Positions 23,801 to 53,702 of a stretch of DNA of 64,000 bases are shown here, piece by piece; position 1 is the stretch's first letter, and each line of letters opens with the position of its first letter. A program made the translations under genes and the position numbers. The notes under the pieces were generated by a model, which saw only the letters and a list, made by a program, of their open reading frames with translations, did not search any database and had not been told where the DNA came from. Source of the stretch: Watersipora subatra (taxonomy: Eukaryota > Bryozoa > Gymnolaemata > Cheilostomatida > Watersiporidae); assembly GCF_963576615.1 (NCBI RefSeq), contig NC_088711.1, positions 14,679,869 to 14,743,868 on the forward strand. The letters run 5' to 3'.

Positions 23801-26800
23801 ACAAAAGAGAGAAAACGAAGAAGAAGCGTCTCTCTTTGCCTGCAAAAATAGACAGTGACGTTTCAATGTCTGATGACGAGATGAGGGTGCGCGATCTCAA
23901 AACAGGCAAGGATGTTGATAGAGGTCAGTTATGCCACATTTCTATTTTCACATTCATTTATTAAAATAACTTTTAAGCCATGTTCAGGTAAAATAATCTG
24001 CTCATACTGTGCTGTTAAATGGCCTTTTTTGTGGAATGACCACATTTCAAGTTATTTTAAAAGTTGACTCGCAACAAAATTCACCTTACAGCTATTTGGT
24101 AGCAAACGATTCACCATGTCTTACTCTGTTGTGTTGTAAGTGCTAAATATGTGGAAATGCGATTACAAGCTCTTAAAAGCTCAAAAACAAAAAGCCGCCG
24201 TAGATTGGAATCTCTTTACTTCGATGACGTAACCACGAAATTTGGTTATCGTCTTGTCACGCATGTTCTCACGTGAATTAAAAGGCCAATGAAAAGTTCA
24301 ATATAAAACTTATCGTAGTACTAGTTTATGACAAACACTTCGGATTTTACCGAAGACCCCGTATCAAATATAGATGCTCGCTACTTTACAGTTTTGTTTC
24401 GGCATTATTCACTCGCCAAGTCGTAATCTGATCATGTGACCCAATACTGCGCAAATAATTTTTGCAGCACTTTTCGATTATCACAGGTGACCAACAGGCT
24501 CGTCATGATTATCAGACAATGATATGTACTCCTTCGAGCTAAGGTTAAAAAGTTTAACGATTTTTTACGGTGAGTTATAAGATATCACTGCTAAAAGTGA
24601 CAGCATTACAATGACGATAAAACAGACGCGTAAGAACAATAGACATAGTTTTATTGAATGCGTGAAGTATATTCATGAAAATATTTAGACTAATAAGGTT
24701 GCAAGAAAGTGTAAACAGAAACCATCTCTCACAACTACATCACATTTGAGCCGTTTTGGAAAGGGAATCCAAACTACGGCGGTCTCGTGTGGCTGCGATT
24801 TTCTGTTCATTTTTTAGCTTTTAAGAGCTTGTAATCACCTTTCCGCATATTTTGCACCTACAACACAACAGAGTAAGACATGGTGAATCTTTTCATATCA
24901 AATAACGGTAATGTGAATTTTGTTGCAAGTCAACCTTTAAGCATAAGTTTTTGTTGCAATTGGTTAAAATTTACATGCATCTTTTGTTTGTACTGTATGT
25001 TGAACACCGTACTTTTCGGACTATTAACCGCACCCTTATATAAGCGCATCTGCTTTATTTTCAAAAATACGATAATAAAACAATACATAGGCCGCACCTT
25101 TGTACAGACCGCAGAACTCGGACGGTGATTTTTAACACGGCAGCAATTTTGCTAGTTAAAACGGAACAGTGCCATTAGACACTGTTTCGTATTAACCGAT
25201 GCCTTTTAACCTAGTCCCTAACGGAACAGTACTGTTAGGCATTGTTTCGCTTTTTCTTTCACCGCTAGAGGCGCACCAACCGGAGATTCTGGTTAATGCG
25301 CCCTAGCGGTGAAAAAAGCCACCACAGAATAGCCGCGCCCTTATATAAGCCGCATGGCTCAAAACACCAGAAAAAAGTGGCGGCTAATAGTCCAAAAAGT
25401 GTGGTATATACAGTACAAACAACTATGGTTTTGTCAGGACATTATCCCATGACCAAACACGCGCGGAGCGAATGTTTGAGTAGTTTTATGATAAATGCAT
25501 GTGCACACAACTCACAAAAATTATTCATCAACAACGTCGCAAACCCTTGTACCGAAATCTCATCAACAAATTTAACCATTTTTTCAGTGGATTCGTTTAA
25601 GTATAATAACGTTACGAAACACATAAAACCTATTTAAATATGTTACCAAGTTTTTGTAAATTGTCGACAATATCTTAAAACTGACCCATCTGATCGGATT
25701 ATACATAAATAGACAGATTAATTTGGCCGAAAATCGTTATTAAACCTTGCCAAGCCTTATTTTTATCAAAATTAAGACCAGCAAACGAAACGCCGAGTGA
25801 CAGAGAATAGAACCATTAAGTCGTGCGCATTTCACGAAAAAATAACGTGCACATTTCACCAGTCTATAGCATTGTCGAATTGCCGAAGGTTTCTGTAATT
25901 AACGTAGAAGAACTGAAATATAATCGTTTCTTTTTTGCCGATTTCAAAATAACTGACATTTTGGACACTTTTGAGTACTTTGGTATTCTAACTGATGTCT
26001 AAAGCAGTGAAAGTAAAGGAAATGACGATGGTATTTTTTTCTAACGATTCTTATGAGACTATTGCAATATTTAATTATAAGTTTAGATGACCATTGAAGT
26101 GTTATAGTCACACTAACAACATCGATGATGGGCAATATGTTACTGTTATTATTTTTTCTAAATAGTTTTATTAAATAGATTTTCTAAAAATCTATATAAA
26201 TATCACAACTTCTTGATATTGGTAGCTATGACGTTTTGAAATGTAAAAAAAATTGTGCATTGGTTTTCTATTATTACTGTATTACTATATTAATAATATT
26301 GGTTATTCTAATAATATCAGTGCATTTTACTTCTAATATTGCATTTCTCCTATTGCAGGGCAGAGATATAAACATATAATCTTTTTCTTTCATTATTGCT
26401 GTTATACATAATAACACCCACACCCATTACATTACAGCTACCAATGCAGTTATCCTATTGCACTGCAGTGCCATTTGACTGCTAATATTGCATTTCTCAA
26501 CCATCAGTATTCTTTCTTTTTTCCAATATCACTTTGGTCGTGGGCTGTTGTATGACAGGGGAATTCTAGTGTATGTATGTCAAATATATACAGTAGAAAC
26601 AACTATGGTTTACTAGAAACAACTAGAAACAACGACATTTAATGATGTATAAAAAGAACTAGTTGAATGCCCTGGAAATAAAGTTTTTGCACCGAAAATT
26701 TATTTAACATATACAGTATTTGCCATTGTCTGACTGAGGGGAGAGAAAATGTAGATGCCATTCCTACTCGAAATAGCACGACACACAACAGTCCATGTGA

Positions 26801-29800
26801 AATGTTTGTAGATTGTAGTCTTTAGTGATTAACTTTAGGGTTTGTTGCATTCAAAATTTGAATGAAAGCCGAACTGGAAGTTGAAGACATGTAAATTGAA
26901 ACTTTTAAAAGGAAAACACTTCTAGTTAGTACTTAGTTATAAAAATTATTTTCAATTAAATTAGGTAAATGTTGAAACTGTACATAAAGAAAAGAGGCAA
27001 AGTCTTGTTCGTGACACACTCAATGATTGAGGCACGCGAGCTGTCCAGAGCTAGGAGTGTTGGGGAAAAAGATTGCATCTCACAGGAATCGAAGCAGCAC
27101 ATTTGTATGCATGGATGCAAAACCAAGCGCTTTGAATGTTAGCAGGACGTTCCGAGTTCAAACCCAGTGTGAAGTGGTTTATTGTTGCTAGAGTTGAATC
27201 ACCATAACTGGACGAACCGACAGACACTCACATCTATATATATTTCTCAAAGTCCGTCTGTTGGAAATCCGGCTATAGCTATTATTAGAACAGCTGAGCT
27301 GGACAACAATACAGACTCAAAGTCATGGCTTACCGTCATTGGAAGCCTAACCTTATTAACTAGCTTAGTGGAGTTTTCCATTGGCAATATGCTACTAGCT
27401 TGAAAGGTACAGTTGTTTGACAAAGTTTTAAAACCTTTACAGTTGTTTTTATTTTTCTCTTAATTTATTTCAACTACACGACACACTTTTCTCATGATAT
27501 ATAGTTTGAAAGTTATAATGGCAAATGTTGTTATATGTTAAATATAAATCAACTTTCTGTCCAAAGACTCTTCTATTACGCGGGCAACGCCGGGTGGCAC
27601 AGCTAGGTTATATATATACTAGTTGTACTACCTGGTGTTGCCCGGGTAATAAAAAAGTCTTTTGACAGAAAATTGATTCGTGTTTAACATATGTAACAAC
27701 ATTTGCCAGACTAACTTTCAAACTACATATCATGGGGAAAGTGTTCCGTGTAGTTGAAATAATTTAGGAAAAATAAAAACAACTGTAAAGGTTTTCAAAC
27801 TTTGTCAAACAACTGTGACTTTCAAACTTCATATCATGAGGAAAATTTTTTGTGCAGGTCAAATAAATTAATGAAAATGAAACAACTATAGGTTTTGATG
27901 TAAATGGGAAATAATTAGCAATAGCTAAATTAAATCTGTTTTACTATGATTACAATAAAAGATGATTCGATAATACAACAATTAATACGAACTGAGAAAA
28001 CAAAATAAAAATCCAGAATATGTTGGATTAATAATAACAATTCTTGCATAGAAGTGTGTGTTTATAAAAACAGGTTACGGTTCCACCAGAAGCTGTTCAT
28101 CAAAACTTTGAATACGACGATACTCGTATTTCTCGATACTGGTACAAATGTAAAAATGGGATATCGTACTGTCTTTGTCTGACCAAATGGGGAGAGAATG
28201 TCGAGGCTCTTCCTACGGAGATACTATAATTGTTCGTGTGAAAAAAATTGGCCTTGACCCCAGATATAGTAATTGAACCTTATGAAAAATATTTCTAAAC
28301 AAGGGCATCGCAATATACGAAATATGATAACGTGTTTGATCAAGATGCCTTATGTAGCTCAGTGGTACAGCGCCTGGATTAAAAACTTGAGGGTGCATTC
28401 GTAGTGAGTTCTAATCCCTCAGAATGCGGAATTTTAAGCTCAAAGATTTTAATAGCTACTTACCCACATACGACCAACTTTGAGAAATATATAAAGTGGA
28501 ACCTCGGTTCTCGAACATAATCCGTTCCAGAAGGTAGTTCGAAAACCGAATTGTTCGAAATCCGAAACAATTTTTCCCATTAGAATAAATATATGTAACT
28601 TTTAATCTGTTCCAAGGCAAAAAAACAACTTTAGTAAAGTATTTTTTTAACATTTTACACCATAAACTGTACAATGTACTGCATACTATAAATAAAAACC
28701 GGTAGATATAGATTGTGTTTGATTTTAATAAAAGGTTTTCTATTTATGATGATGGAAAAAGAGAACAAAAATAAACATTAAAAGCAAAACATTATATGTT
28801 TTGCTCTTAAAACATCAAAAACATTAAAGGTTAAGATACAGTACCAAAAATTGCAGAAATTGATAATGAGACAGGAAAATTTGCAACAGATCAGTTACAT
28901 CAAAAGTCGTAGAAAAAATAAAATATTAACAGCAATGGCATGTTTACTTCACATCCTTAAAGAAGAATCCTCCTCCAAAACAGTTTAGGGTAATTCGACT
29001 GGAGGGGTTATCTCCCTAGCAAATCTCTTCAGTAGAGAAGACGTCGTCCCAGATGGTTCTTCCCTTTTTGTAAAGAATTTATGAAGCGTAAATTGCTTCT
29101 CCATTTGTTAACGAATGTTTCCATGCTGTTTCTGGAGCTGTTCCAATTCCAATGCGCATGCTCCGGTTTGGTCGAGAACGGAATTTATGTTTGAGATCCG
29201 AGACGAACAAATCTCAAAATCTTTGTTCGCAAACTGAGTTGGTCGAGAATAAGTGCTGTACATATTGAAAATTAGTAACAAAATAGTATGATGACCTTAG
29301 TAACTGTAGTTACCTACAGTAACTTCATTAATTTAGTGAATTTATTAATTATGATCTGCATTAAAATGTAACGTTACAATGTCTATGAGTAGTACTACAT
29401 ACTGAAAAAAGTTTTTACCTTCAAGACAACTGTATGAATAACAAAAACTGCACTTCAAATAAGTTTACCTTACTAAACACACTAAGTTTTAGTATGTATT
29501 TTTAACTGTTTTATGAAATTTCAACTTATCATCACTAAAATTGTATCACTCATCAGTTTCTATCTTCGCTTTCACTATAATTTTTAGCGGACCTGTCTGA
29601 AACATTTTTCAACTTAATTCGGCAAAAAACCTGAATGATGCCGTTTTCGCAATGAAGTGAATTTTTGTTAGCGGCTAAGAGAATTTGTCTAACCACTATA
29701 AGTTCTGTATGAAGAGATCGCAACTCCAACTTTGCTTCTGATTTTAAAGGAAAAATGTTACCGTTTTACACACCAGAATTCCTGAACTGAGATAAATCAG

Positions 29801-32800
29801 TCTTCTTGTTTTTTTCAGGCATCGTGAAAACGTTTTCGCAAACAGCATTTCGATGTCTTTGGCATTTTGACGGACGTAATAAGCACACCAGCCCCAAAAT
29901 TTGAACTCGGTTGAAAATTTTGTCGAATTTGTATGGTAAAAAAAGATTTGTTTTGTGAAGTGAAAAAATCATTATGTTCCACTTTGTAAGGTAAAAAATT
30001 GTATATCAGGGCAATTGTATCCTGAGAGTACACTGTACCTAGATTATTGTTTACAAAATGCTAGCGTTTTTTTATAAACCCCTCAACCCCATTTATGCAG
30101 GCGCCGATAATGTATGGCGGATCTAGCGCAAGATCTAACCTTCAATGGTAAACTCCACCCCTGCACTGCCAGAATATTTTACTTTTTCGACATCTACATA
30201 CTTTTTGAAAGAGTGATAAATTATTATCATATTCGAGCAAAAGAGTTGCAAGCGTATGTTGTCCTTCATCTGCCTCTGTAATGATTTAGCTTTGTTAAAT
30301 TGGATAACAGACCAAGTCATTTACCGGTTTTTGCGCATTCGATCTATAGGAGGTATGTAAGGTTTGATCTATAGGAGGTATGTAAGGTTTGATCTATAGG
30401 AGGTATGTAAGGTTTGATCTATAGGAGGTGTGTATGGTTTGATCTATAGGAGGTATGTAAGGTTTGATCTATAGGAGGTATTTAAGGTTTGATCTATAGG
30501 AGGTATGTAAGGTTTGATCTATAGGAGGTGTGTATGGTTTGATCTATAGGAGGTATGTAAGATTTGATCTATAGGAGGTATTTAAGGTTTGATCTATAGG
30601 CGGTATGTAAGGTTTGATCTATAGGAGGTATCTAAGGTTTGATCTACAGGAGGTATGTAAGGTTTGAACACCTGCAATTTATTGGTCATTTGTCCCAAAC
30701 AACAAACTTGCATGATTTGACCCAAAGCCATGTTAAAGTTCCTGCCACTATTTTACCAACTCTGTTTCTAGTGCTCACATCCAGTGTTGACAAAGCTCCC
30801 TTATTCTGTCTGGATGGGACTATAGCAAGCGAAGACGATCCAGTAAAGATATGTAAATTATTGGACGGTAGCAACAGTGGAAATGACAAGACATCATTCG
30901 GCGCCATCACATTGGCCGCATCAGCCGAAAAACCGAGTTCTTTTCTAAGAGGTTATTCTCTGGTATGTTCAGCAATATTCCCCAGCACTCCAATATCTAA
31001 CACCTTACGCACCAGAGTGTGGTAGTTAACTGACATGTTGTAATAGTCATGGCTCCAGCTGATAAGTATTCTTTTCAAGTGCTGGTATCTTATGGGGAAT
31101 AGTATTTATTAATGAGTTTATTTCATTACTATAAAAAGTGTGTAACCTTACTCTATACTTCAACATTTCTATATAATGAAATCATTTTATTAGCATATCC
31201 ATTTACGTAATATTGACCAGAAGTTTTTAAATAAATTGAACTTTCTGAAAATTAGCTAAGTATTTTGTATAATTTTAGACTTTTTACCTGCAAGAAGGCA
31301 TGGTGATACTCTGCATTAATGGAGCATACAAGAAGTTTCTAAAGAGTGGTGGTTGCTTCATTGTTCCTGATGGTAAGTTTATTATTGGAATAAATATATG
31401 AACACTTATAAAGTTTGCTATCCTCATATATCTATACACAGTCGACGCTCCTATAACATATACCTCCTATAACGTAAATTCCAGATAACGTAAATAATTT
31501 ATGTGAAGTTTTTGCTTCCTACTACGTAAAAAATTCCATATAACGTAAAGCCTCAAGTCGGTGCAACTTCTCAAATTCGATTTGAATAACAAGAATCTTG
31601 TAGTTAGCATAAAACGTAATTTTATCTCTTGGCGCACTTAAGAGGGAACACGATATACGTCTCGATTATATATACAAGTACCGTAGCAGTCTGATTCAGC
31701 GACACATGCACAGAGAATGAGTAGCCCCGCTATTCGGAAATACTTGAAGACGATCAATTGATGCAGATGCTAGTGTTGGTCTGAAAGCTATCTTTTATCA
31801 TAACCTTAAACCCTAGAGACAACTAGATGGACGGACAGATGGACACCGCTCTTATTATAGTAAAAAAGTATTTTGTTTGTCTTCATAGCAGGTGTATAAA
31901 ATATTTTTTATTACTTTTCTATTGCAGAATAAACTTTGCTGTCTATCAAAAAAAACTAATCGTTGCAAATTGGAGTCAGAGGCGGGTGCTCTCCTTAACG
32001 CATCTTAAAATTACTGTAATCATGAACCCTAAACCAAACTAGTCTTAAGAAAAACAAGAAAAGTTGTTGATACAAACCAATAATACTATAGTTACTGTAC
32101 ATTCAACAAATCAAAAGGTTGTGTCTGATTTTTTTTAGTAAGGCTAAAGTGTTGAGTATGGATAGATCTTGTAACAGATTAGGCGATTTACATGTAAGTT
32201 ACTGTTCTTATAACGGAAAATTCCAATAACGTAAATGTTCTTGGAACAGACTATTTACGTTGGAGGAGCGTCTACTGTATATATATATAATCTCATATGC
32301 AGTAGCATTCATTTAGTATGACATATTATTCATCGTTTGATGATCGCTTTAGCTGCGCTGAACTTCAAGCAGTAGGTATAAAATCTTCTACAAATTGGTA
32401 TATAAACCAAATTTTATATATGTACATGTATCGACATACATTATTAATCACTAGTTCATTTTGTGAGCCCAAAGTTGTGTGTTGTACAGAGCTATGTAAT
32501 TGAGGGCCCATCATCATGTTTTGTTAAAATTCTAACAATATTGAAATAAGTAAAATTAACAGTCTAGTTGAAAATGTGGTTGTCATGCTACACCTTACCT
32601 TATTGGTTTTAATAACTTGATGTCTTATGCAGTACTTAGCTTGACTCTAACAAAGGATAATAAGAGAAATAAATGGGACATATTTTAATCACACCATCTT
32701 TGTCCTTTTTAATGTTTATTTTGCACTCGCCTGAGCAGTGCAATCAGCTCAGCTATTTGACAGCTGTCGAGTTGCTCGCATACCATGGAAGATGCATACA

Positions 32801-33233
32801 AACTGTTTTGGTTTTTATTAGAAGATAACCAGACATAATTATTATAAAATAATAAGTATTATTCTATGAAATTTATAACTGATAAACCAGTCAAGGTCAA
32901 ATGCCAAATGGTATGTCATTGGCGTAACTGTTTACGAAGGTTACTTAGTTCTAAGATATATTTCCTAGGATTTAGCATGCATTTATTGGGTAACCAGGAG
33001 TCTGATAGTTTTCAAGAGTTATTTATGGAGTAATCTATACATGACATTGATTACGTTGACTAGTAATTTTTACTGTATATAAAATATTTAATGCATGTAA
33101 TAGTAAAGGACTTATTCAGTGCATGACAGCATTTATTTTTGTTGTAGGCAACTCTTATGAGCTGAAGAATGTTGGCAAAGTTCCAGCCAAGCTAGTCTTC
33201 TTCACTCTGAAAGATGATGACTCCCTCACATAA
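2688..33233 (+). CDS. CENPC: Centromere protein C (CENP-C/Mif2 family), 13 coding exons
   Basis: Inner kinetochore scaffold that binds CENP-A nucleosomes and links them to the outer kinetochore. Proposed coding exons: 2688-2805, 3120-3189, 5657-7830, 8084-8231, 9034-9230, 13032-13154, 23516-23596, 23771-23923, 30772-30962, 31279-31372, 33148-33233. An upstream non-coding exon probably joins at 2669, and one or two small exons could be missing. All listed junctions have AG/GT and agree in phase, giving 3435 nt, about 1144 residues (human CENP-C is 943). Domains: a Ser/Asn-rich repetitive middle, residues about 63-790; the CENP-C motif (RRSKRTRLP then GERPIYER), about 917-940; a basic linker; and a cupin fold at the C-terminus, about 1050-1144 (FYLQEGM, FIVPDGNSYELKN, LVFFTLKD). 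Start at 2688 is the first Met after the acceptor but is not certain. The last three exons are duplicated downstream. Confidence 0.85.
3120..3189 (+). CDS. CENPC: CENP-C coding exon 2
   Basis: Acceptor TTTCTTTAG ends at 3119 and donor GG|GTTTGT follows 3189. The 70-nt exon is basic and then acidic (KWKTRFCKKK, ELEEEP). Phases fit both neighbours exactly (1 in, 2 out). The donor is weak, so the boundary is less certain than the others. Confidence 0.55.
3913..5146 (+). mobile_element. Tigger/pogo-like DNA transposon with N-terminal transposase remnant
   Basis: Terminal inverted repeats CAGTAATACTTCAACTTACG (left) and its near-perfect complement ending GACTG (right) are flanked by TA on both sides, the pogo/Tigger target signature. 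At about 4105-4350 the plus strand encodes the pogo/CENP-B-type N-terminal helix-turn-helix (ITVDIKRKSIEKY, IARQYDRN). The DDE catalytic domain is deleted. It sits in the second CENP-C intron. A 3' fragment of the same family occurs at 58562-58949, and a diverged relative at 55271-55967. Confidence 0.85.
5657..7830 (+). CDS. CENPC: CENP-C large exon 3, Ser/Asn-rich internal repeats
   Basis: Acceptor TTTTTCTCAG ends at 5656 and donor ACAG|GTGCTG follows 7830. The 2174-nt exon encodes about 725 residues without an intron. Residues about 345-625 contain roughly four degenerate units of about 95 residues, each with a TYRV/YTVEDNSQ(D/E)SS-like core followed by SKGSL and MYA-EDNHKD-like segments. 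The composition is low in hydrophobics and rich in S, N, D, T, so the region is probably disordered. A basic patch RKRVKRLFFTSD lies near residue 700. This matches the general plan of CENP-C, in which only short motifs and the C-terminal cupin are conserved and the remainder diverges quickly. Confidence 0.8.
8084..8231 (+). CDS. CENPC: CENP-C coding exon 4
   Basis: Acceptor GTGCATCAG ends at 8083 and donor TTAAG|GTAGGT follows 8231. The 148-nt exon enters in phase 1 and leaves in phase 2, matching its neighbours, and encodes a charged stretch (SDDYESASK, VVEEKSQVEK, LRRKSELL). A second in-frame acceptor (CATTTTCAG, exon from 8117) would shorten it by 33 nt, giving an 11-residue alternative. 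Confidence 0.65.
9034..9230 (+). CDS. CENPC: CENP-C coding exon 5, basic
   Basis: Acceptor CTCACAG ends at 9033 and donor AATCT|GTGAGT follows 9230. The 197-nt exon encodes a lysine-rich segment (KRTKPSSKKKTGK) followed by a Ser/Pro/Lys-rich stretch (SRLKHVGLKGEVTYKSPKI). Phases (2 in, 1 out) fit exons 4 and 6. Confidence 0.7.
9307..10175. mobile_element. Tigger-like non-autonomous element (CAGTAGACGC family), copy 1
   Basis: Termini CAGTAGACGCTTCTATAATG and GCCTACTG (inverted) are flanked by TA. The interior shares islands with the copies at 31439-32277 and 37742-38578 (for example the ACGTTATA-rich ends and the AAGGTTAGGATAAAGATAA-like interior, inverted). No transposase is seen. It lies in a CENP-C intron. 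Confidence 0.7.
10176..13031. other. CENP-C intron with degenerate transposon ends
   Basis: No exon was recognised. Two weak inverted-repeat pairs suggest decayed elements: about 10363-10390 (CCGTATATCCCAGCACATAA) with 12590-12615 (GTCGGCTTATATTCGGGGAC inverted), and about 10667-10710 (TTATTTGAATGCC) with about 11940-11993 (GGGCGTTCAAATACAA inverted). At 10232-10262 is a short copy of the GCCCGGCATTGC repeat also found near 27640 and 61695. Confidence 0.35.
13032..13154 (+). CDS. CENPC: CENP-C motif exon
   Basis: Acceptor TTTGCTAG ends at 13031 and donor ACGG|GTCTGT follows 13154. The 123-nt exon encodes a segment containing RRSKRTRLP, then 7 residues, then GERPIYER. This corresponds to the CENP-C signature in vertebrates (basic RRTKRTRLKP followed by an aromatic and GERIDY), the peptide that contacts the CENP-A/H4 tail and the H2A/H2B acidic patch. 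The usual W of the YWRGERI core is replaced: the equivalent position here reads HFVGERPIY. Phase 1 in and 1 out joins to 23516, where G|GT completes a glycine. Confidence 0.85.
14395..14867 (+). mobile_element. Possible solo LTR
   Basis: Begins TGTTGGACGCC and ends CCTTTACA, with a TATATATAGG box near 14696-14705 followed by GAGCAGAGCAG, an arrangement typical of an LTR promoter and R region. A clear target duplication was not found, so this is tentative. Confidence 0.35.
14923..15588 (-). pseudogene. gypsy RNase H domain (broken)
   Basis: The minus strand encodes a Ty3/gypsy RNase H region: a DTDAS metal-binding start near 15385-15400, VAYYSKTLSP and ELLAVV motifs, and after a frame change the TDHASL motif near 15170-15185. 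The tail after ADGLSRQ is not integrase; it translates the 41-bp LTR remnant and flanking DNA. Confidence 0.8.
15589..16447 (-). pseudogene. gypsy reverse transcriptase (broken)
   Basis: Minus-strand frames contain reverse transcriptase blocks: SSPVVMVRKKDG, FCVDYRQLN, STLDLTSGYWQV and, after a frame change near 15940, the active-site YLDD at about 15812-15826. The pieces are in the expected order but in different frames, so the gene is non-functional as read. Confidence 0.85.
17008..17655 (-). pseudogene. gypsy gag-pol spacer and aspartic protease
   Basis: The open minus-strand frame ends in an aspartic protease segment with the LFLIDTGCNTN active-site motif near 17120-17165 (DTG in place of DSG). 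The N-terminal part is Pro/Arg/Gly-rich and has no clear family. Confidence 0.7.
18183..19159 (-). pseudogene. gypsy gag with CCHC zinc knuckle (broken)
   Basis: Two minus-strand frames (18773-19159 and 18183-18698) form a gag. The first starts MARRTRSAERP and contains a capsid-like segment (FIRQFNDVAIANDW); the second ends with a nucleocapsid knuckle CWECDQAGHWKRNC near 18268-18310. They are separated by a frame break near 18700-18770. Confidence 0.75.
19197..19214 (-). other. gypsy primer-binding site
   Basis: On the minus strand the 5' LTR end (ACCTTTACA) is followed after one base by TGGTGGCAGCAGTGGG, the TGG-initiated pattern of a tRNA primer-binding site directly downstream of a 5' LTR. 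Confidence 0.65.
19216..19980 (-). repeat. gypsy 5' LTR
   Basis: Bounded by TGT at the high-coordinate end on the minus strand and ACA at the other, adjoining GTAG. A TATATAAGGAG promoter motif is present on the minus strand near 19710-19720. Its terminal 41 bp are repeated exactly at 14982-15022. The outer boundary is inferred from the TG/CA ends plus the GTAG match. Confidence 0.7.
21703..23515. other. CENP-C intron, nothing else recognised
   Basis: No exon or confident repeat was recognised in this intron segment between element A and the next CENP-C exon. A locally inverted GAGCTACACAGAG/AGTGCTCTGTGTAGCT pair occurs near 23378-23432. Confidence 0.4.
23516..23596 (+). CDS. CENPC: CENP-C coding exon 7
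   Basis: Acceptor TTTATTTCAG ends at 23515 and donor AATG|GTAATG follows 23596. The 81-nt exon (ASIIVGLEKKDPAED, TFFTSKLN) joins the CENP-C motif exon in phase 1, placing it where the segment after the motif is expected. Confidence 0.7.
23771..23923 (+). CDS. CENPC: CENP-C coding exon 8, basic linker
   Basis: Acceptor CTTACAG ends at 23770 and donor AGAG|GTCAGT follows 23923. The 153-nt exon encodes a strongly basic stretch (KGAKRRKAGNKREKTKKKR, a likely nuclear localisation signal) and then an acidic SDVSMSDDEMRVRD segment. Phase 1 in and 1 out. Confidence 0.75.
24061..24936 (+). mobile_element. TTAA-flanked inverted-repeat element B, complete copy
   Basis: About 140-bp terminal arms, beginning AAGTTGACTCGCAACAAAA on the left and ending TTTTGTTGCAAGTCAACCT on the right, are flanked by perfect TTAA at 24057-24060 and 24937-24940. 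No coding capacity. Other copies: 1-597 (partial) and 58951-59081 (right arm only). Confidence 0.82.
25007..25404. mobile_element. MITE with internal hairpin
   Basis: Inverted ends CGTACTTTTCGGACTATTAA and GGCTAATAGTCCAAAAAGTG bracket about 400 bp. A near-perfect stem at about 25252-25318 (TTTCACCGCTAG...CTAGCGGTGAAAA) and paired AACGGAACAGT motifs (25158 and 25219) lie inside. No coding capacity; superfamily not assigned. Confidence 0.65.
25405..27410. other. CENP-C intron sequence
   Basis: No exon recognised. Short diverged repeats around 26260-26520 share a CTAATATTGCATTTCTC core. A tRNA-like B-box (GAGTTCAAACCC) occurs near 27155 without a convincing A-box. Confidence 0.35.
27411..27860. 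repeat. Head-to-head inverted copies of the GCCCGGCGTTGC repeat
   Basis: Arms of about 200 bp meet near 27605-27630: the left arm reads in reverse what the right arm reads forward (TGCCCGGGTAATAAAAAAG, then CTTTTGACAGAAAATTGATT). Single copies of the same repeat occur at 10232 and 61692. This resembles a widespread invertebrate repeat end, but I cannot assign the class. Confidence 0.6.
28345..28430 (+). repeat. tRNA-derived repeat or tRNA pseudogene, copy A
   Basis: Contains a good polymerase III A-box (TAGCTCAGTGGT at 28356) and a B-box-like GAGTTCTAATCCC (28406) at tRNA-like spacing, but no convincing cloverleaf with paired acceptor ends. It is more likely the head of a SINE or a decayed tRNA than a working tRNA gene. 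Confidence 0.55.
28494..29258. mobile_element. Tigger-like element (CAGTGGAACCTCGG family), copy A
   Basis: The left end AAGTGGAACCTCGGTTCTCG (CAGTGG in the duplicate) and the right end GGTCGAGAATAAGTGCTG form imperfect inverted repeats with TA at the right flank. The end sequence is typical of Tigger-like elements. No transposase recognised. Confidence 0.65.
29259..30340. other. CENP-C intron, nothing recognised
   Basis: No exon or element ends recognised. The block is duplicated at 35562-36643. Confidence 0.4.
30341..30666 (+). repeat. 25-bp minisatellite carrying splice-donor motif, copy A
   Basis: About 13 tandem units of GATCTATAGGAGGTATGTAAGGTTT-type sequence, with variants GTGTGTATGG and GTATTTAAGG. 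Each standard unit contains AG|GTATGTAAG, a near-consensus 5' splice site on the coding strand of CENP-C. The array ends 105 bp before the acceptor of exon 30772-30962. Confidence 0.95.
30772..30962 (+). CDS. CENPC: CENP-C exon 9 (start of C-terminal domain), copy A
   Basis: Acceptor GTTTCTAG ends at 30771 and donor CTCTG|GTATGT follows 30962. The 191-nt exon encodes VLTSSVDKAPLFCLDGT through SSFLRGYSL and leads into the cupin strands of the next exon in phase 0. The exon sequence is identical in the duplicate at 37075-37265. Confidence 0.8.
31279..31372 (+). CDS. CENPC: CENP-C exon 10, cupin core, copy A
   Basis: Acceptor ATAATTTTAG ends at 31278 and donor GATG|GTAAGT follows 31372. Encodes TFYLQEGMVILCINGAYKK and ends FIVPDG. 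This aligns with the vertebrate CENP-C cupin strands (VFYVIHGDLLC, FYVPSG). The cupin fold mediates CENP-C dimerisation. Confidence 0.88.
31439..32277. mobile_element. Tigger-like element (CAGTAGACGC family), copy 2
   Basis: Ends CAGTCGACGCTCCTATAACA and GGAGGAGCGTCTACTG (inverted), TA at the right flank. It lies in the last CENP-C intron and is duplicated at 37742-38578. No transposase seen. Confidence 0.75.
33148..33233 (+). CDS. CENPC: CENP-C last exon, cupin end and stop, copy A
   Basis: Acceptor TTGTTGTAG ends at 33147. Encodes (G)NSYELKNVGKVPAKLVFF and ends TLKDDDSLT then TAA. This matches the last cupin strands of CENP-C (GNYYNIKN, LLFTQ). A poly(A) signal AATAAA lies at 33347-33352. 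Confidence 0.88.
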
Positions 33234-34647
33234 TATCAATCGCATGCACTTTAAGAACTTCATGTCATACATTTATTTTCTAATATAATTATTATATTTT
33301 ACATTTGTTTCTATACGTGGCAGGATCAACGAAATACCTCCTCAGAAATAAACTTCATTTTTTGTTTGTTACATATCTTTTTATGTCAATTGAACATGTA
33401 TTAAATAGAAAAATGTACTTACAAATCAGTATTGAAATATAGTTACGTATCAGCAGACATTGTACCTATTTAATTATGTGTGTGGATATTATTGCACTTT
33501 CATTACAACCTATAGAGATAAAGAGCTAACAATACTGCCTTGCGAAGTTTCCAACCATTGTAGAGAAATGAGTTGAGCCTACCATCTAGTCTTGCAATCT
33601 TATTTCATATACAAATATGTACATAAACATGAAGCAAAGCCTTGATCATTCTGCAATGATTGTCATTTCAGAACAAGATCAATCCAATAATCTATCTGTC
33701 CATTGCAATTCTAAAATCTGCTAATGCGATTAGACCAACATCCTGGAAGTGACGTTTTCAGCGGCAACTAGGGAGATATTTTAGCAATAGATACCTAGTT
33801 CACGCCGTATAAGTAAGTACTAGTAAGTTTACATATTAATATACACCTAACTCTGATGTCAAACTAAGAAAAGATACACAAACAAGATGCGCCGACATTG
33901 TCAAGTATAAAAACCACCTTTAAACAAAATCTCGCTGGGCTTTCACTCTCAACTTTCATCCCCAAAGGCTCGACAAAAAAAGCACGTTTTAGGGGTGTTT
34001 TTTGGTGGCCAGACACTAGTGTTTTCATAAAAAAGGTATGTTTTTTTAGCTTGGTGCAGTGAATGGGGGCCAAGCCTGTCTTATTGAGTTCCACACAGTG
34101 GAAAGGGGTATTCATGACCTTGTTTTAAATAGGGTAAATCCCTGTTCTTATTAGGTAGGAGCAGTGATTGAGCCAAAAAGGGAGCAGTTAGTCTGTGGTG
34201 ATAAAGGGCAATTTTTTATTAATGTGTAAGTCAGCGGAAAGGGTGCATTTTATCTCAGACTACCCCTTGAGGATGAAAAGTGAGTGAAACTCCTGGGCAA
34301 AATCTATTTTGGGCAAAGTTGTGTGCGATATTTGTCAATCTCTGATGAAAATCTTGCCAAGGTATTTCTGATTCATAATGTGTATCACCTTGGTACTTAT
34401 CAAAGCAATTCTAGCTGGTACTAACTTTTTAAATCATCCAGTCAGCCAATTTGCCCTTTCTCCATAACAAACAATTGTAGGCACATACCACAGAAACTCT
34501 AATGCAATGGTGAATGGGAATTGTTGATACAGAAGTTAAAACAAAAAAAATTGGCCTTGACCCCAGATATAGTAATTGAACCTTATGAAAAATATTTCTA
34601 AACAAGGGCATCGCAATATACGAAATATGATAACGTGTGTGATCAAG

Positions 34648-34733
34648 ATGCCTTATGTAGCTCAGTGGTACAGCGCCTGGATTAAAAACTTGAGGGTGCA
34701 TTCGTAGTGAGTTCTAATCCCTCAGAATGCGGA
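34648..34733 (+). repeat. tRNA-derived repeat or tRNA pseudogene, copy B
   Basis: Duplicate of 28345-28430 with the same A-box and B-box-like blocks. Confidence 0.55.
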
Positions 34734-34796
34734 ATTTTAAGCTCAAAGATTTTAATAGCTACTTACCCACATACGACCAACTTTGAGAAATATATA

Positions 34797-35561
34797 CAGT
34801 GGAACCTCGGTTCTCGAACATAATCCGTTCCAGAAGGTAGTTCGAAAACCGAATTGTTCGAAATCCGAAACAATTTTTCCCATTAGAATAAATATATGTA
34901 ACTTTTAATCTGTTCCAAGGCAAAAAAACAACTTTAGTAAAGTATTTTTTTAACATTTTACACCATAAACTGTACAATGTACTGCATACTATAAATAAAA
35001 ACCGGTAGATATAGATTGTGTTTGATTTTAATAAAAGGTTTTCTATTTATGATGATGGAAAAAGAGAACAAAAATAAACATTAAAAGCAAAACATTATAT
35101 GTTTTGCTCTTAAAACATCAAAAACATTAAAGGTTAAGATACAGTACCAAAAATTGCAGAAATTGATAATGAGACAGGAAAATTTGCAACAGATCAGTTA
35201 CATCAAAAGTCGTAGAAAAAATAAAGTATTAACAGCAATGGCATGTTTACTTCACATCCTTAAAGAAGAATCCTCCTCCAAAACAGTTTAGGGTAACTCG
35301 ACTGGAGGGGTTATCTCCCTAGCAAATCTCTTCAGTAGAGAAGACGTCGTCCCAGATGGTTCTTCCCTTTTTGTAAAGAATTTATGAAGCGTAAATTGCT
35401 TCTCCATTTGTTAACGAATGTTTCCATGCTGTTTCTGGAGCTGTTCCAATTCCAATGCGCATGCTCCGGTTTGGTCGAGAACGGAATTTATGTTTGAAAT
35501 CCGAGACGAACAAATCTCAAAATCTTTGTTCGCAAACTGAGTTGGTCGAGAATAAGTGCTG
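34797..35561. mobile_element. Tigger-like element (CAGTGGAACCTCGG family), copy B
   Basis: Duplicate of 28494-29258. Here the left end is preserved as TACAGTGGAACCTCGG, supporting the TA/CAG terminus. Confidence 0.7.
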
Positions 35562-36643
35562 TACATATTGAAAATTAGTAACAAAATAGTATGATGACCT
35601 TAGTAACTGTAGTTACCTACAGTAACTTCATTAATTTAGTGAATTTATTAATTATGATCTGCATTAAAATGTAACGTTACAATGTCTATGAGTAGTACTA
35701 CATACTGAAAAAAGTTTTTACCTTCAAGACAACTGTATGAATAACAAAAACTGCACTTCAAATAAGTTTACCTTACTAAACACACAAAGTTTTAGTATGT
35801 ATTTTTAACTGTTTTACGAAATTTCAACTTATCATCACTAAAATTGTATCACTCATCAGTTTCTGTCTTCGCATTCACTATAATTTTTAGTGGACCTGTC
35901 TGAAACATTTTTCAACTTAATTCGGCAAAAAACCTGAATGATGCTGTTTTCGCAATGAAGTGAATTTTTGTTAGCGGCTAAGAGAATTTGTCTAACCACT
36001 ATAAGTTCTGTATGAAGAGATCGCAACTCCAACTTTGCTTCTGATTTTAAAGGAAAAATGTTACCGTTTTACACACCAGAATTCCTGAACTGAGATAAAT
36101 CAGTCATCTTGTTTTTTTCAGGCATCGTGAAAACGTTTTCGCGAACAGCATTTCGATGTCTTTGGCATTTTGACGGACGTAATAAGCACACCAGCCCCAA
36201 AATTTGAACTCGGCTGAAAATTTTGTCGAATTTGTATGGTAAAAAAAGATTTGTTTTGTGAAGTGAAAAAATCATTATGTTCCACTTTGTAAGGTAAAAA
36301 ATTGTATATCAGGGTAATTGTATCCTGAGAGTACACTGTAGCTAGATTATTGTTTACAAAATGCTAGCGTTTTTTTATAAACCCCTCAACCCCATTTATG
36401 CAGGCGCCGATAATGTATGGCGGATCTAGCGCAAGATCTAACCTTCAATGGTAAACTCCACCCCTGCACTGCCAGAATATTTTACTTTTTCGACATCTAC
36501 ATACTTTTTGAAAGAGTGATAAATTATTATCATATTCGAGCAAAAGAGTTGCAAGCGTATGTTGTCCTTCATCTGCCTCTGTAATGATTTAGCTTTGTTA
36601 AATTGGATAACAGACCAAGTCATTTACCGGTTTTTGCGCATTC

Positions 36644-36969
36644 GATCTATAGGAGGTATGTAAGGTTTGATCTATAGGAGGTATGTAAGGTTTGATCTAT
36701 AGGAGGTATGTAAGGTTTGATCTATAGGAGGTGTGTATGGTTTGATCTATAGGAGGTATGTAAGGTTTGATCTATAGGAGGTATTTAAGGTTTGATCTAT
36801 AGGAGGTATGTAAGGATTGATCTATAGGAGGTGTGTATGGTTTGATCTATAGGAGGTATGTAAGGTTTGATCTATAGGAGGTATTTAAGGTTTGATCTAT
36901 AGGAGGTATGTAAGGTTTGATCTATAGGAGGTATCTAAGGTTTGATCTACAGGAGGTATGTAAGGTTTG
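36644..36969 (+). repeat. 25-bp minisatellite carrying splice-donor motif, copy B
   Basis: Same array length and nearly the same unit order as 30341-30666, with a few unit-level substitutions (for example one AAGGATTGATC). Array length has not changed since duplication. Confidence 0.95.
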
Positions 36970-37074
36970 AACACCTGCAATTTATTGGTCATTTGTCCCA
37001 AACAACAAACTTGCATGATTTGACCCAAAGCCATGTTAAAGTTCCTGCCACTATTTTACCAACTCTGTTTCTAG

Positions 37075-38575
37075 TGCTCACATCCAGTGTTGACAAAGCT
37101 CCCTTATTCTGTCTGGATGGGACTATAGCAAGCGAAGACGATCCAGTAAAGATATGTAAATTATTGGACGGTAGCAACAGTGGAAATGACAAGACATCAT
37201 TCGGCGCCATCACATTGGCCGCATCAGCCGAAAAACCGAGTTCTTTTCTAAGAGGTTATTCTCTGGTATGTTCAGCAATATTCCCCAGCACTCCAATATC
37301 TAACACCTTACGCACCAGAGTGTGGTAGTTAACTGACATGTTGTAATAGTCATGGCTCCAGCTGATAAGTATTCTTTTCAAGTGCTGGTATCTTATGGGG
37401 AATAGTATTTATTAATGAGTTTATTTCATTACTATAAAAAGTGTGTAACCTTACTCTATACTTCAACATTTCTATATAATGAAATCATTTTATTAGCATA
37501 TCCATTTACGTAATATTGACCAGAAGTTTTTAAATAAATTGAACTTTCTGAAAATTAGCTAAGTATTTTGTATAATTTTAGACTTTTTACCTGCAAGAAG
37601 GCATGGTGATACTCTGCATTAATGGAGCATACAAGAAGTTTCTAAAGAGTGGTGGTTGCTTCATTGTTCCTGATGGTAAGTTTATTATTGGAATAAATAT
37701 ATGAACACTTATAAAGTTTGCTATCCTCATATATCTATACACAGTCGACGCTCCTATAACATATACCTCCTATAACGTAAATTCCAGATAACGTAAATAA
37801 TTTATGTGAAGTTTTTGCTTCCTACTACGTAAAAAATTCCATATAACGTAAAGCCTCAAGTCGGTGCAACTTCTCAAATTCGATTTGAATAACAAGAATC
37901 TTGTAGTTAGCATAAAACGTAATTTTATCTCTTGGCGCACTAAGAGGGAACATGATCTACGTCTCGATTATATATACAAGTACCGTAGCAGTCTGATTCA
38001 GCGACACATGCACAGAGAATGAGTAGCCCCGCTATTCGGAAATACTTGAAGACGATCAACTGCTGCAGATGTTAGTGTTGGTCTGACAGCTATCTTTTAT
38101 CATAACCTTAAACCCTAGAGACAACTAGATGGACGGACAGATGGACACCGCTCTTATTATAGTGAAAATGTATTTTGTTGTCTTCATGGCTGGTGTATAA
38201 AATATTTTTTATTACTTTTCTATTGCTGGATAAACTTTGCTGTCTATCAAAAAAAACTAATCGTTATAAATAGAAGTCAGAGGCGGGTGCTCTCCTTAAC
38301 GCATCTTAAAATTACTGTAATCATGAACCCTAAACCAAACTAGTCTTAAGAAAAACAAGAAAAGTTGTTGATACAAACCAATAATACTACAGTTACTGTA
38401 CATTCAACAAATCAAAAGGTTGTGTCTGGTTTTTTGTAGTAAGGCTAAAGGGTTGAGTATGGATAGATCTTGTAACAGATTAGGCGATTTACATGTAATT
38501 TACTGTTCTTATAACGGCAAATCCCAATAACGTAAATGTTTTTGGAACAGACTATTTACGTTGGAGGAGCGTCTA

Positions 38576-38612
<37 letters not shown>

Positions 38613-40034
38613 CTCATATGCAGTAGCATTCATTTAGTATGACATATTATTCATCGTTTGATGATCGCTTTAGCTGCGCTGAACTTCAAGCAGTAGGTAT
38701 AAAATCTTCTACAAATTGGTATATAAACCAAATTTTATATATGTACATGTATTGACATACATTATTAATCACTAGTTCATTTTGTGAGCCCAAAGTTGTG
38801 TGTTGTACAGAGCTATGTAATTGAGGGCCCATCATCATGTTTTGTTAAAATTCTAACAATATTGAAATAAGTAAAATTAACAGTCTAGTTGAAAATATGG
38901 TTGTCATGCTACACCTTACCTTATTGGTTTTAATAACTTGATGTCTTATGCAGTGCTTAGCTTGACTCTAACAGAGGATAATAAGAGAAATAGATGGGAC
39001 ATATTTTAATCACACCATCTTTGTCCTTTTTAAAGTTTATTTTGCACTCGCCTGAGCAGTGCAAACAGCTCAGCTATTTGACAGCTGTCGAGTCGCTCGC
39101 ATACCATGGGAGGTGCATACAAACTGTTTTGGTTTTTATTAGAAGATAACCAGACATAATTATTATAAAATAATAAGTATCATTCTATGAAATTTATAAC
39201 TGACAAACCGGTCAAGGTCAAATGCCAAATGGTATGTCATTGGCGTAACTGTTTACGAAGGTTACTGGGCTCTAAAGCCTGGTTTCCATATGACAGCGCA
39301 ATGATCGCGCGCGGCCCAGTGATCGTGCGCAATGCATTTTTTGGGCCGCGAGGCAGTGTTTCCATATCGCGCATAAGCTCCATGCTTGCATTGGACAGGG
39401 TGGATATTTTCCTTACTTTTTCGTAGGAGAGACATATTTCTTCGGAAAAACAGACCTCCGTTGCGAAATTACGCTGTCATATAAAAATCAGGCTTACTCT
39501 TTCGTACGGGAGACCGATTTCTTCGGAACAAAGCCCTTCGCTGGAATTGTGGGATAGGTTGATAAGGTCTAGCGGTGTATTGTGGGATACATAATCGCAC
39601 GCACCCATCGCAAGGATCCATTCTGTTGGATACTTGCGATCAGCGTACGCACGTCGCGCAACCGTGTGTTGACGTTTCCATATCACAACTGGCCTACGCA
39701 CGACGTCGTGCGCCTTGTTGCGCGCCTTGTGCTGTCATATGGAAACCAGGCTTAAGACATATTTCCTAGGATTCAGCATGCATTTATTGGGTAACCAGAA
39801 GTCTGATAGTTGTCAAGAGTTATTTATGGAATAATCTATATATTACATTGATTACAATGACTATTAATTTTTACTGTATATAAAATATTTAATGCATGTA
39901 ATAGTAAAGGACTTATTCAGTGCATGACAGCATTTATTTTTGTTGTAGGCAACTCTTATGAGCTGAAGAATGTTGGCAAAGTTCCAGCCAAGCTAGTCTT
40001 CTTCACTCTGAAAGATGATGACTCCCTCACATAG
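37075..40034 (+). CDS. Duplicated CENP-C terminal exons (second cupin end)
   Basis: Three exons, 37075-37265, 37582-37675 and 39949-40034, repeat the last three CENP-C exons with splice sites intact. I find no difference in the coding bases except that the stop is TAG instead of TAA. A poly(A) signal AATAAA occurs at 40148-40153. There is no second copy of the upstream exons, so this is not an independent gene. It may be an alternative 3' end reached by splicing exon 23771-23923 to 37075 past copy A, or an unused duplicate. Which one is used cannot be told from sequence. Confidence 0.75.
37742..38578. mobile_element. Tigger-like element (CAGTAGACGC family), copy 3
   Basis: Duplicate of 31439-32277 within unit B, followed by an expanded (TA)n run that is short in unit A. 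Confidence 0.75.
39276..39752. mobile_element. PIF/Harbinger-like MITE, unique to unit B
   Basis: Perfect terminal inverted repeats AGCCTGGTTTCCATATGACA (22 bp or more) with TAA duplicated on both sides (39273-39275, 39753-39755). Unit A has the empty site (TTCTAAGAT near 32950). The 3-bp TWA target duplication and the TIR style fit PIF/Harbinger. The element is GC-rich compared with its surroundings and has no coding capacity. Confidence 0.88.
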
Positions 40035-41338
40035 TATCTATCGCATGCACTTTAAGAACTTCATGTCATACATTTATTTTCTAATATAATTATTATATTT
40101 TACATTTGTTTCTATACATGGTAGGATCAACGAAATACCTACTCAGAAATAAACTTCATTTTTCGTTTGTTACTTATCTTTTTATGTCAATTGAACATGT
40201 ATTAAATAGAAAAATGTACTTACAAATCAGTATTGAAATATAATTAGGTATCAGCAGACATTGTACCTATTTATTGTGTGTGTATATTATTGCACTTTCA
40301 TTATAACATATAGAGATGAAGAGCTACCAATACTGCCTTGCGAAGTTTCCAACCATTGTAGAGAAATGAGTTGAGCCTGCCATCTAGTCTTGCAATCTTA
40401 TTTTATTTACAAATATGTACATAAACATGAAGCAAAGCCTTGATCATTCTGCAATGATTGTCATTTCAGAACAAGATCAATCCAATAATCTGTCCATTGC
40501 AATTCTAAAATCTTCTAATGCGATTAGACCAACATCCTGGAAGTTACGTTTTCATTGGCAACTAGGGAGATATTTTAGCAATAGATACCTAGTTCATGCC
40601 GTATAAGTCAGTACTAGTAAGTTTACATTTTAATATACACGTAACTCCGATGTCAAACTAAGAAAAGATACACAAACAAGCTGCGTAGACATTGTCAAGT
40701 ATAAAAACCACCTTTAAACAAAATCTCGCTGGGCTTTCACTCTCAACTTTCATCCCCAAGGCTCAACAGAAAAGCGCGTTTTAGGGGTGTTTTTTGGTGG
40801 CCAGACACTAGTGTTTTCATAAAAAAAGGTATGTTTTTTAGCTTGGTGCAGTGAATGGGGGCCAAACCTGTCTTATTGAGTTCCACACAGTGGAAAGGGG
40901 TATTCATGACCTTGTACTAAGTAGAGTAAATCCCTCTTCTTATTAGGTAGCAGCAGTGATTGAGCCAAAAAGGGAGCAATTAGTCTGTGGTGATAAGGGG
41001 CAATTTTTTATTAATGTGTAAGTCAGCGGAAAGGGTGCATTTTATCTCAGACTACCCCTTGAGGATGAAAAGAGAGTAAAACTCCTGGGCAAAATCTATT
41101 ATGGGCAAAATTGTGTGCGATATTTGTCTAGGGCTGATGAAAATCTTGCTAAGGTATTTCTGATTCATAACGTGTATCACTTTTGTACTTATCAAAGCAA
41201 TTCTAGCTGGTACTAACTTTTTAAATCATCCAGTCAGCCAATTTGCCCTTTCTCCGTAACAAACAATTGTAGGCACATACCACAGAAACTCTTTAATGCA
41301 ATGGTGAATGAGAATTGTTGATACAGAAGTTAAAACAA

Positions 41339-42870
41339 ACTGGCACCAGCTAAATAAGGGTTATAGAACTAGAAAAATAAGCTATATAAGAAAAAAGTGC
41401 CTGCTAGTTAAAAGAAATGCACTGACTAATGTCATATTTACAATTGGTAGAACCATTGAAGAGTTGCGGTATATCAACCAACCAATAAACATGTTTAGCT
41501 TTCATGTGCTAAGCCTAGATAAACTAGATGAGACTTATTATACTGTTTCTCATCTGCATTAGCCAGCATTCTCATCTGCTGTAGCTAGTATTCTCTAACG
41601 TTTTATTAATGTGGAGTTTGGTTGCCAATTCCAACTTTACACAAGATATTGCTAGCATAATTATCAGCACACCAGTTGTATCACTACAACCAATCTTGAC
41701 AGTACATAACTGCCAGACGTAGTTGATTGTGAACACTTTGTTTTCCCTCATGTTCTTTAACATAAAACCAGTTGCATTTATGCAAAGGAAATATAGCTAT
41801 GCAACAAATGCAAAGCTTAATAAGGGTTTTGTGGAGGATCTTCTTGGTCGGCAGGAAGAATCCTTAGAAGCTGCCTTTCAAAGCCAGTTGGGGTTTGGTC
41901 AGTAGGGCATCAAAATTAGACACCACCACACATTCACTCGGCAGCAGAAATTCTATAAATAAAACAATCAGGTAAGCTTAATGAACAAGCCAACATCTAT
42001 TTTCAGAGATACTCAACAGCGATGTACCACTTTACTAGGACCTGATTGACTCAATTCAATATAAAAAAGGACAACGCATGTGTAAAACGGATTATTTGCT
42101 GGGCATGCTGAATTTAAAAACTATGAGAGACCGTGTCAGCGATTATCTACAAAGCTGCTAGTAAAACCATCAATACTAAGCCTTTTGCAAAGCGCCTAGT
42201 TCCGTCAACGGAATGCTGAAAACAACCTTTCTTACTTACACGAACTGACCGAGTGAATTTCGCGGCATCGTAGACTGTGAAAGTGCTCTAAATAATTATC
42301 GTACAATAGCGACATTTTCGGAAGAAATAGTCCTAGTTAATAAAATGTTCACGTTCAGTCGATATGCGACGAGAAGAGCAGGTGCGTTTCTTAGCAACCA
42401 ATAAATCATCCTTGGCTTCTTGGTCGGCACTGAGTTGAATACATTATTCTTCTGGAGTGCCAATAAGATTAACAATATACAGTGTAGCAACTTTTCAGAC
42501 CAAGGTAAGACGTTTACACGCTATTGTTATTAAATTATTTGGTGTTGTTTTTATACTTTAAGTTACTTATGACTAATAATAAACAATTTCTATTCCGATC
42601 TATTACTTACTGCTAAGTACTTTCACTAATTGTCATATTTGAACTGACCAAGCTACATGGCAAAAGAGACACTACGTTTTATATGATATTTTGATTTAGT
42701 TAAACAAAAACAGAATTTAAATGCAGCAATTTAGACTAATGTATATGCTCTAAAACTATAGTAAAACTTGGTATTTTATAAGTTTACATACAATACATTG
42801 TTGTCTGGCTTGTAGTTGCCAAGCTTAAGTGAGCTGGACTCTCAAAGAGTATAGTAAAAATATTTCAACA
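41339..42870. other. Region between CENP-C duplication and SPMIP4
   Basis: Nothing recognised with confidence. The sequence ACTTTTCAGACCAAG|GTAAGAC near 42491-42510 could be the donor of a 5' untranslated exon of the gene starting at 42871. Confidence 0.4.
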
Positions 42871-49236: not shown

Positions 49237-49675
49237 ACATATCAGTAAACACGACATATCAGTAAACACGACATGTCAGTAAACATGACATGTCAGTAAA
49301 CATGACATATCAGTAAACACGACATATCAATAAACACGACATACCGGCAATCATGACATATCGGTAAACATGACATATCTATAAACACGACATATCAGTA
49401 AACATGACATACCAGTAATCATGACATATCAGTTAACACGACATATCAGTAAACACGACATACCGGCAATCATGACATATCGGTAAACATGACATATCTA
49501 TAAACACGACATATCGGTAAACACGACATATCAGTAAACACGACATATCAGTAAACACGCCATATCAGTAAACACGACATATCAGTAAACACGCCATATC
49601 AGTAAACACGACATATCAGTAAACACGACATAACAGTAAACACGCCATATCAGTGAACATGACATATAGGCAAAC
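49237..49675. repeat. 17-bp minisatellite with 119-bp higher-order period
   Basis: About 26 units of ACGACATATCAGTAAAC. The variant block ATACCGGCAATCATGACATA followed by the CTATAAAC variant recurs at 49341 and 49460, a spacing of 119 bp (7 units), so part of the array grew by block duplication. It lies between the convergent SPMIP4 and zinc-finger genes. Confidence 0.95.
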
Positions 49676-53400: not shown

Positions 53401-53702
53401 TATTAATCACCTGCACAAGGAGCATATTAATCACCTGCACAAGGAGCACAGCTAGCTGTCTTAGCAACTGACAAGTCCAGAGGAACTGAAGAGTCGGAAG
53501 GCTTGGCAGGCTTAACACTCAAGTCCAAAGGTTCAGCAGCAACAGCAGGGGCAGCAGCGGCAGCAGGAGGAACAACAGAGAAAGGATGCATCGTAGAGTT
53601 AGGTCGATGGAGAGCCTCCTTGAATGGATCCTCTCTTCCGAATGGAAACGATCTTAACTGCTGCGGCCCTCTTAACCATGAGTGAAAATTGGCTGGGTTC
53701 AT
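50486..53702 (-). CDS. C2H2 zinc-finger protein with PLDLS motifs
   Basis: Two coding exons: 53435-53702 and 50486-51492. Exon 1 follows an acceptor (TTTGTTAG) 5 bp before the ATG at 53702, so a 5' untranslated exon lies upstream. It encodes 89 residues starting MNPANFHSW, with an alanine run and two PLDLSV motifs (PLDLSVKP, PLDLSVAK), the CtBP corepressor-binding type. Its donor TGTGCAG|GTGATT matches in phase 1 to the acceptor TTCTTGTAG at 51493. Exon 2 carries three C2H2 fingers (about residues 142-164, 168-190, 202-225; CSYC, CIHC, CTIC starts), a serine-rich middle (SSSSDRRRS) and an acidic DDEDEEEEKK tract. The frame stops at 50486; alternatively a donor CAAAG|GTATGG after 50499 could lead to more exons. 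Probably a nuclear transcriptional repressor; no orthologue recognised. Confidence 0.75.
51493..53014. other. Zinc-finger gene intron
   Basis: No exon established. An 83-codon open frame on the minus strand (51878-52129) has no recognised family. At 52599-52684 lies one copy of a roughly 85-bp direct repeat (other copy 54407-54492, core GCAATGAGCTCCAC, AGCTGCAAAAGC, GAGTGCAAAGAC). Confidence 0.4.
53015..53447 (-). repeat. 24-bp minisatellite of splice-donor units abutting exon 1
   Basis: About 18 units. On the minus strand (the gene's sense strand) each unit reads TGTGCAGGTGATTAATATGC, followed by a CCCT or TCCT variant, and so carries CAG|GTGATT. The unit at the array's high-coordinate edge is the actual end of coding exon 1 (CAPCAG). 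If a later unit's donor were used, the extra sequence begins GTGATTAA and brings an immediate in-frame stop. Confidence 0.95.

Follow-up and report, generated by a model that had tools for sequence, protein, structure and literature searches.

Background

Tandem duplications that involve CENP-C have precedents in both animals and plants. In Drosophila birchii, Cenp-C1c2 is a young tandem duplication whose copies are 99.7% identical and which is likely polymorphic (PMC12724597, in the part available), and in grasses exons 9-12 of Cenpc show recurrent tandem duplication of exon pairs (Talbert et al., 2004, PMC549713, likewise the part available). False exon and gene gains in assemblies form a third point of comparison; the marks of false duplication given in the available part of Ko et al. 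(2022, PMC9516828) are half depth, gaps, discordant linked reads and one-copy k-mers.

Here we describe a 64,000-base window of the bryozoan Watersipora subatra (NC_088711.1, positions 14,679,869 to 14,743,868; all positions below are those of the window unless a contig is named), in which the three terminal exons of a CENP-C gene, those of the cupin, occur twice in tandem as copies A and B (Table 1). As far as these partly available sources go, the locus resembles D. birchii Cenp-C1c2 in being an apparently young tandem duplication that includes CENP-C, but the fly block holds four genes with CENP-C whole, whereas only the 3′ part of the gene is duplicated in W. subatra. It resembles grass Cenpc, as described in that same part, in being a tandem exon duplication inside a CENP-C gene; there, however, the exons are internal, lie outside the conserved C-terminal region and are all kept in one protein, whereas here they are the terminal cupin exons, each copy has its own stop, and the usual exon order cannot read them all. 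With the false gains described in the consulted portion of Ko et al. (2022, PMC9516828) it shares adjacent copies and allele-like divergence, but it has no assembly gap. The W. subatra locus adds an example to a kind of duplication already known. In the literature on CENP-C duplication, cupin and isoforms, judged mostly from entries, we found no report of a duplicated cupin end, and no paper on bryozoan kinetochores was found by title and the start of the abstract.

Our preferred reading, to which we give a probability of roughly 0.7, is that this is a real, young tandem segmental duplication in the assembled haplotype, with copy A as the working 3′ end and copy B redundant. The duplication is possibly polymorphic in W. 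subatra.

Table 1. Positions of the CENP-C exons and of the parts of the duplicated block within the window.
Feature	Position	Strand	Remarks
CENP-C motif-like exon, peptide RRSKRTRLPCLRHFVGERPIYER	13032..13154	+	splice sites, frame; phase 1 at both ends
CENP-C exon upstream of duplication	23516..23596	+	AG/GT sites, phase
Last CENP-C exon before duplication	23771..23923	+	AG/GT sites; phase 1 donor
Unit A of tandem duplication	28241..34543	+	6303 bp; self-comparison
25-bp minisatellite, unit A	30341..30667	+	13.1 copies; length equal in unit B
Cupin exon A1	30772..30962	+	191 bp
Cupin exon A2	31279..31372	+	94 bp
Cupin exon A3, coding part	33148..33233	+	stop TAA
Poly(A) signal AATAAA, copy A	33347..33352	+	
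A/B junction	34543..34550	+	within A-run of 8
Unit B of tandem duplication	34544..41339	+	6796 bp; self-comparison
25-bp minisatellite, unit B	36644..36970	+	13.1 copies
Cupin exon B1	37075..37265	+	identical to A1
Cupin exon B2	37582..37675	+	identical to A2
Insertion, unit B only	39273..39752	+	480 bp, MITE-like, ~29-bp terminal inverted repeats
Cupin exon B3, coding part	39949..40034	+	stop TAG
Poly(A) signal AATAAA, copy B	40148..40153	+	

Identity of the gene

The first-pass annotation had named the gene CENP-C, and its C-terminal cupin supports that name. The spliced 3′ end reads ...GKDVDR-VLTSSVDKAPLF...GGCFIVPDGNSYELKNVGKVPAKLVFFTLKDDDSLT; joined to the exon before it, this end scores 33.8 bits with Pfam CENP-C_C (PF11699; cut-off 29, E 4.3e-8), and phmmer aligned the cupin end with two solved structures, cnp3 chain 6o2d_A (E 5.8e-8), which we take to be cnp3 of the S. 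pombe type, and CENP-C chain 7x85_A (E 1.5e-6). Judged by the sequence of its cupin, the gene is CENP-C. The CENP-C_C profile gave no match in the unspliced genome because exons split the domain; of 14 control genomes, four gave a signal, below the cut-off.

Upstream of the cupin, an exon that occurs at one place in the genome encodes a candidate CENP-C motif. Its position as a single phase 1-1 exon fits the motif, its alignment with the motif of CENP-C chain 7bxt_K is a weak match (E 0.55), and the peptide has no Pfam match. Where the solved motif has YW, the peptide has HF. The intron that follows (13155-23515) contains minus-strand retroelement pieces at ~14.9-19.2 kb, and a minus-strand open frame within it (15217-15864) matches RT_RNaseH_2 (E 1.6e-31).

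Structure of the duplication

Self-BLAST confirmed the tandem duplication of the gene end proposed by the first-pass annotation, with coordinates that were correct to within 1-2 bases. Two direct repeats were recovered, 28241-32945 with 34544-39266 (98.3% identity) and 32952-34545 with 39753-41339 (95.1% identity). Chance would not produce a 6.3-kb repeat at 95-98% identity, and the units lie head-to-tail and adjacent with one new junction, that is, as a tandem segmental duplication. Within each lie the 3′ portion of an intron, which carries a 25-bp minisatellite, the three exons, a stop, AATAAA and ~1.2 kb of DNA further downstream. In unit B a TA run is longer than in unit A, and there is an insertion of its own, which belongs to a family with at least 40 other near-full-length copies at 96-98% identity; by eye, a three-base target duplication, TAA, is suggested at 39273-39752.

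Runs of A mark the edges of the units, 3 at the right-hand edge of unit B and 7 at the left-hand edge of unit A, against 8 at the junction, leaving a microhomology of ~2 bp of shared A. When the 1-kb flanks were compared with the sequence to the left and right of the junction, the best matches were 13-15 bp long with E 0.053 or worse, values that give no support to a repeat at both edges as the cause of the duplication.

No further copy of the cupin end was found. In 783,720,542 bases on 239 contigs, cupin exon 1 occurs at two places only, both in the window, and a search with the 961 bp of 30680-31640 gave 41 matches, of which the two full-length ones are in the window and the others are a dispersed repeat at the query end. 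As a base rate we used five windows of 40 kb, from 25 drawn by script, a small sample that gives no rate. In three of the five, the direct repeats of at least 1 kb, among the matches listed, belong to short-period arrays. Once the two longest arrays had been cut, repeats of at least 500 bp at an offset of at least 1 kb were found in two of the five: one match measured 1330 bp at 93.5% with an offset of 4.2 kb, and the other lay within a 200-bp array.

Several other features were recorded in passing. Both units contain a tRNA-like stretch, tagctcagtggtacagcgcctgga (28345-28425 and 34648-34728), perhaps a SINE; ARAGORN called no tRNAs in the window and an Rfam scan of the window gave no matches. 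Two minisatellites lie downstream, at 49237-49667 (17-bp unit, 25.4 copies) and 53015-53448 (24-bp unit, 18.1 copies), and between them a minus-strand open frame of 346 aa (50486-51526) has zinc-finger-like cysteine-histidine pairs by eye and no Pfam match at E 0.01. Elsewhere in the genome, C5:31642269-31673665 is a ~31 kb satellite with a period near 253 bases.

Coding capacity of the two copies

The first-pass annotation held that three exons with their splice sites, stop and poly(A) signal are intact twice, and that the preceding exon could join either set. Both points hold. The AG/GT splice sites are intact and the same in copies A and B, and each copy has a stop and AATAAA. The introns before exon 1 and after exon 2 are phase 1, so exon 23771-23923 can join copy A or copy B in frame, over 6848 bases to A1 or 13,151 to B1. 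The only difference between the coding parts of A3 and B3 is A>G at 33233, in the third position of the stop codon.

Its description of two complete cupin ends fits the DNA, but not a protein built in the usual exon order. We rejected a double-cupin protein of that order on account of the stop in A3. Because copy A carries this stop as well as a poly(A) signal, A and B exclude each other as 3′ ends, and their residues are identical. As translated in silico, the usual product is single-cupin CENP-C, the same protein from either copy, and the mixed orders A1-A2-B3 and A1-B2-B3 give this protein too. Copy B as an independent small protein was also set aside: by eye, the open frame 36939-37328 has no in-frame ATG before B1.

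Divergence between the copies

The copies differ by 131 substitutions over 6292 aligned sites (2.08%). The published k-mer completeness of the W. subatra assembly at k = 31 (primary 69.65, alternate 61.25, combined 98.05; available part of PMC12902671) leaves a shared part of 32.85, from which we derive an allelic divergence of 1.99-2.40% under a simple model that takes no account of indels or missing sequence. The two copies thus differ about as two alleles of the animal do.

This divergence is not evenly spread. A change point at 31651 separates a left part with 19 substitutions in 3409 sites (0.56%) from a right part with 112 in 2883 (3.9%), with a gain of 45.7 log units compared with a maximum of 9.4 in 500 permutations. 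Two identical runs cover the exons: 30602-31650, which contains exons 1 and 2 and has no substitution over 1049 bp (one 1-bp indel at 31638; 27% coding), a mildly unexpected length (P 0.018), and 33064-33232, 169 bp around exon 3, half coding and half intron. Of the claim that the coding bases are identical apart from TAA/TAG amid differing flanks, the identity therefore stands, but the contrast is softer than had been stated, since identical runs extend into introns.

On our preferred reading, the event duplicated the 3′ portion of one CENP-C intron together with the three exons of the cupin and ~1.2 kb beyond them. It joined two unrelated sites with ~2 bp of A in common, probably through microhomology-type repair or exchange. 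The 3′ side of the CENP-C gene would thereby have been joined to its own intron, perhaps between homologues, and A and B may be former alleles united by this exchange; such an origin would account both for an allelic divergence at birth and for the mosaic. Former alleles would both have been under selection before the duplication, so coding identity amid differing surroundings is expected of them.

The mosaic is explained equally well by an older duplication, diverged to ~3.9%, in which gene conversion later homogenised the left half. The sharp change near 31651, the identical minisatellite lengths and the young-looking 480-bp insertion in B only would all fit conversion, but alleles with a recombinant history would look alike, and we regard this history as doubtful, though worth keeping in mind. 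Conversion is compatible with a real duplication, as is the use of both copies as alternative ends, so the likelihoods that we attach to the rival explanations overlap and do not sum to one. Given the allele-like divergence and the identical runs past the exons, the divergence neither dates the duplication nor proves that B is used.

Use of the two copies

Under our preferred reading, a real duplication with a redundant copy B, exon 23771-23923 would splice to the near copy A and transcripts would end at the A poly(A) signal. Copy A is complete and would be met first by the polymerase, and so would supply the 3′ end, leaving copy B rarely or never used. Copy B would then degenerate, disappear through recombination with A, or be kept as a polymorphism. 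The first-pass annotation had offered three options (an unused recent duplicate, an alternative 3′ end or an assembly artefact), and on the sequence the first appears to fit best.

One figure speaks against an unused B. If both copies drifted at the local rates, 4.8 coding differences would be expected and none is seen (P 0.008), which may leave room for selection on both. If only B drifted, 2.4 would be expected and P(0) is 0.09, a value that leaves the coding identity compatible with an unused B. This identity looks like what two functional alleles would show and is no proof that both copies are in use, and we rejected selection on both as an established cause of it, given that the runs of identity reach into introns.

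We think it improbable that both copies serve as alternative 3′ ends, which would give different 3′UTRs on the same protein. Splice sites, stops and AATAAA intact in A and B would suit this use, as would the contrast between unchanged coding bases and a difference of ~3.9% in the DNA surrounding exon 3; but copy A comes first with its own poly(A) signal, and a young unused copy or former alleles would be expected to have the same coding identity.

Assembly artefact or real duplication

A haplotypic false duplication would mean that the primary assembly places two alleles of a single-copy region one after the other. The copy divergence equals the k-mer-derived allelic divergence, as an artefact would predict, though this agreement is not specific. 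In the available part of the assembly's description (PMC12902671), 46 haplotypic duplications were removed by hand, so such errors did occur, and its Table 1 implies a mean HiFi read of ~5.8 kb, shorter than yet near the unit length, so that few reads span a whole unit. (For the HiFi yield, the text of that source, in the same part, gives 13.30 Gb as 39-fold, but it is the 30.93 Gb of its Table 1 that fits 39-fold.) Speaking against an artefact, there are 0 N in 84,000 bases around the copies and no gap between them. The breakpoints lack shared sequence that an assembler could overlap; with no flank match better than E 0.053 at the junction, no overlap for a false join is seen. A false join would also require a chimeric molecule, and BUSCO duplication is 1.7% (PMC12902671, same part). 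Taken with these points, we judge an artefact quite improbable.

The weakest alternative, which we regard as very improbable, is a CENP-C isoform made by splicing A2 to B1. Since A1 and A2 make up a phase 1-1 cassette, this splice, which leaves out A3 and the stop it carries, keeps the reading frame. A1-A2-B1-B2-B3 would add 95 residues (336 versus 241 in the part translated), so that a cupin without its final strands would precede a complete one.

Implications

If the A2-B1 isoform were real, it could alter CENP-C self-association, kinetochore assembly could become sensitive to a polymorphic duplication, and the animal would offer a natural test of CENP-C cupin number. On our preferred reading of a real duplication with copy B redundant, the copies would not give the kinetochore scaffold a second cupin. 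The locus would then be a clear example of how a 3′-end duplication can look functional, since both copies would have been working alleles, and the junction 34543/34544 is a possible marker for CENP-C 3′-end copy number in wild Watersipora.
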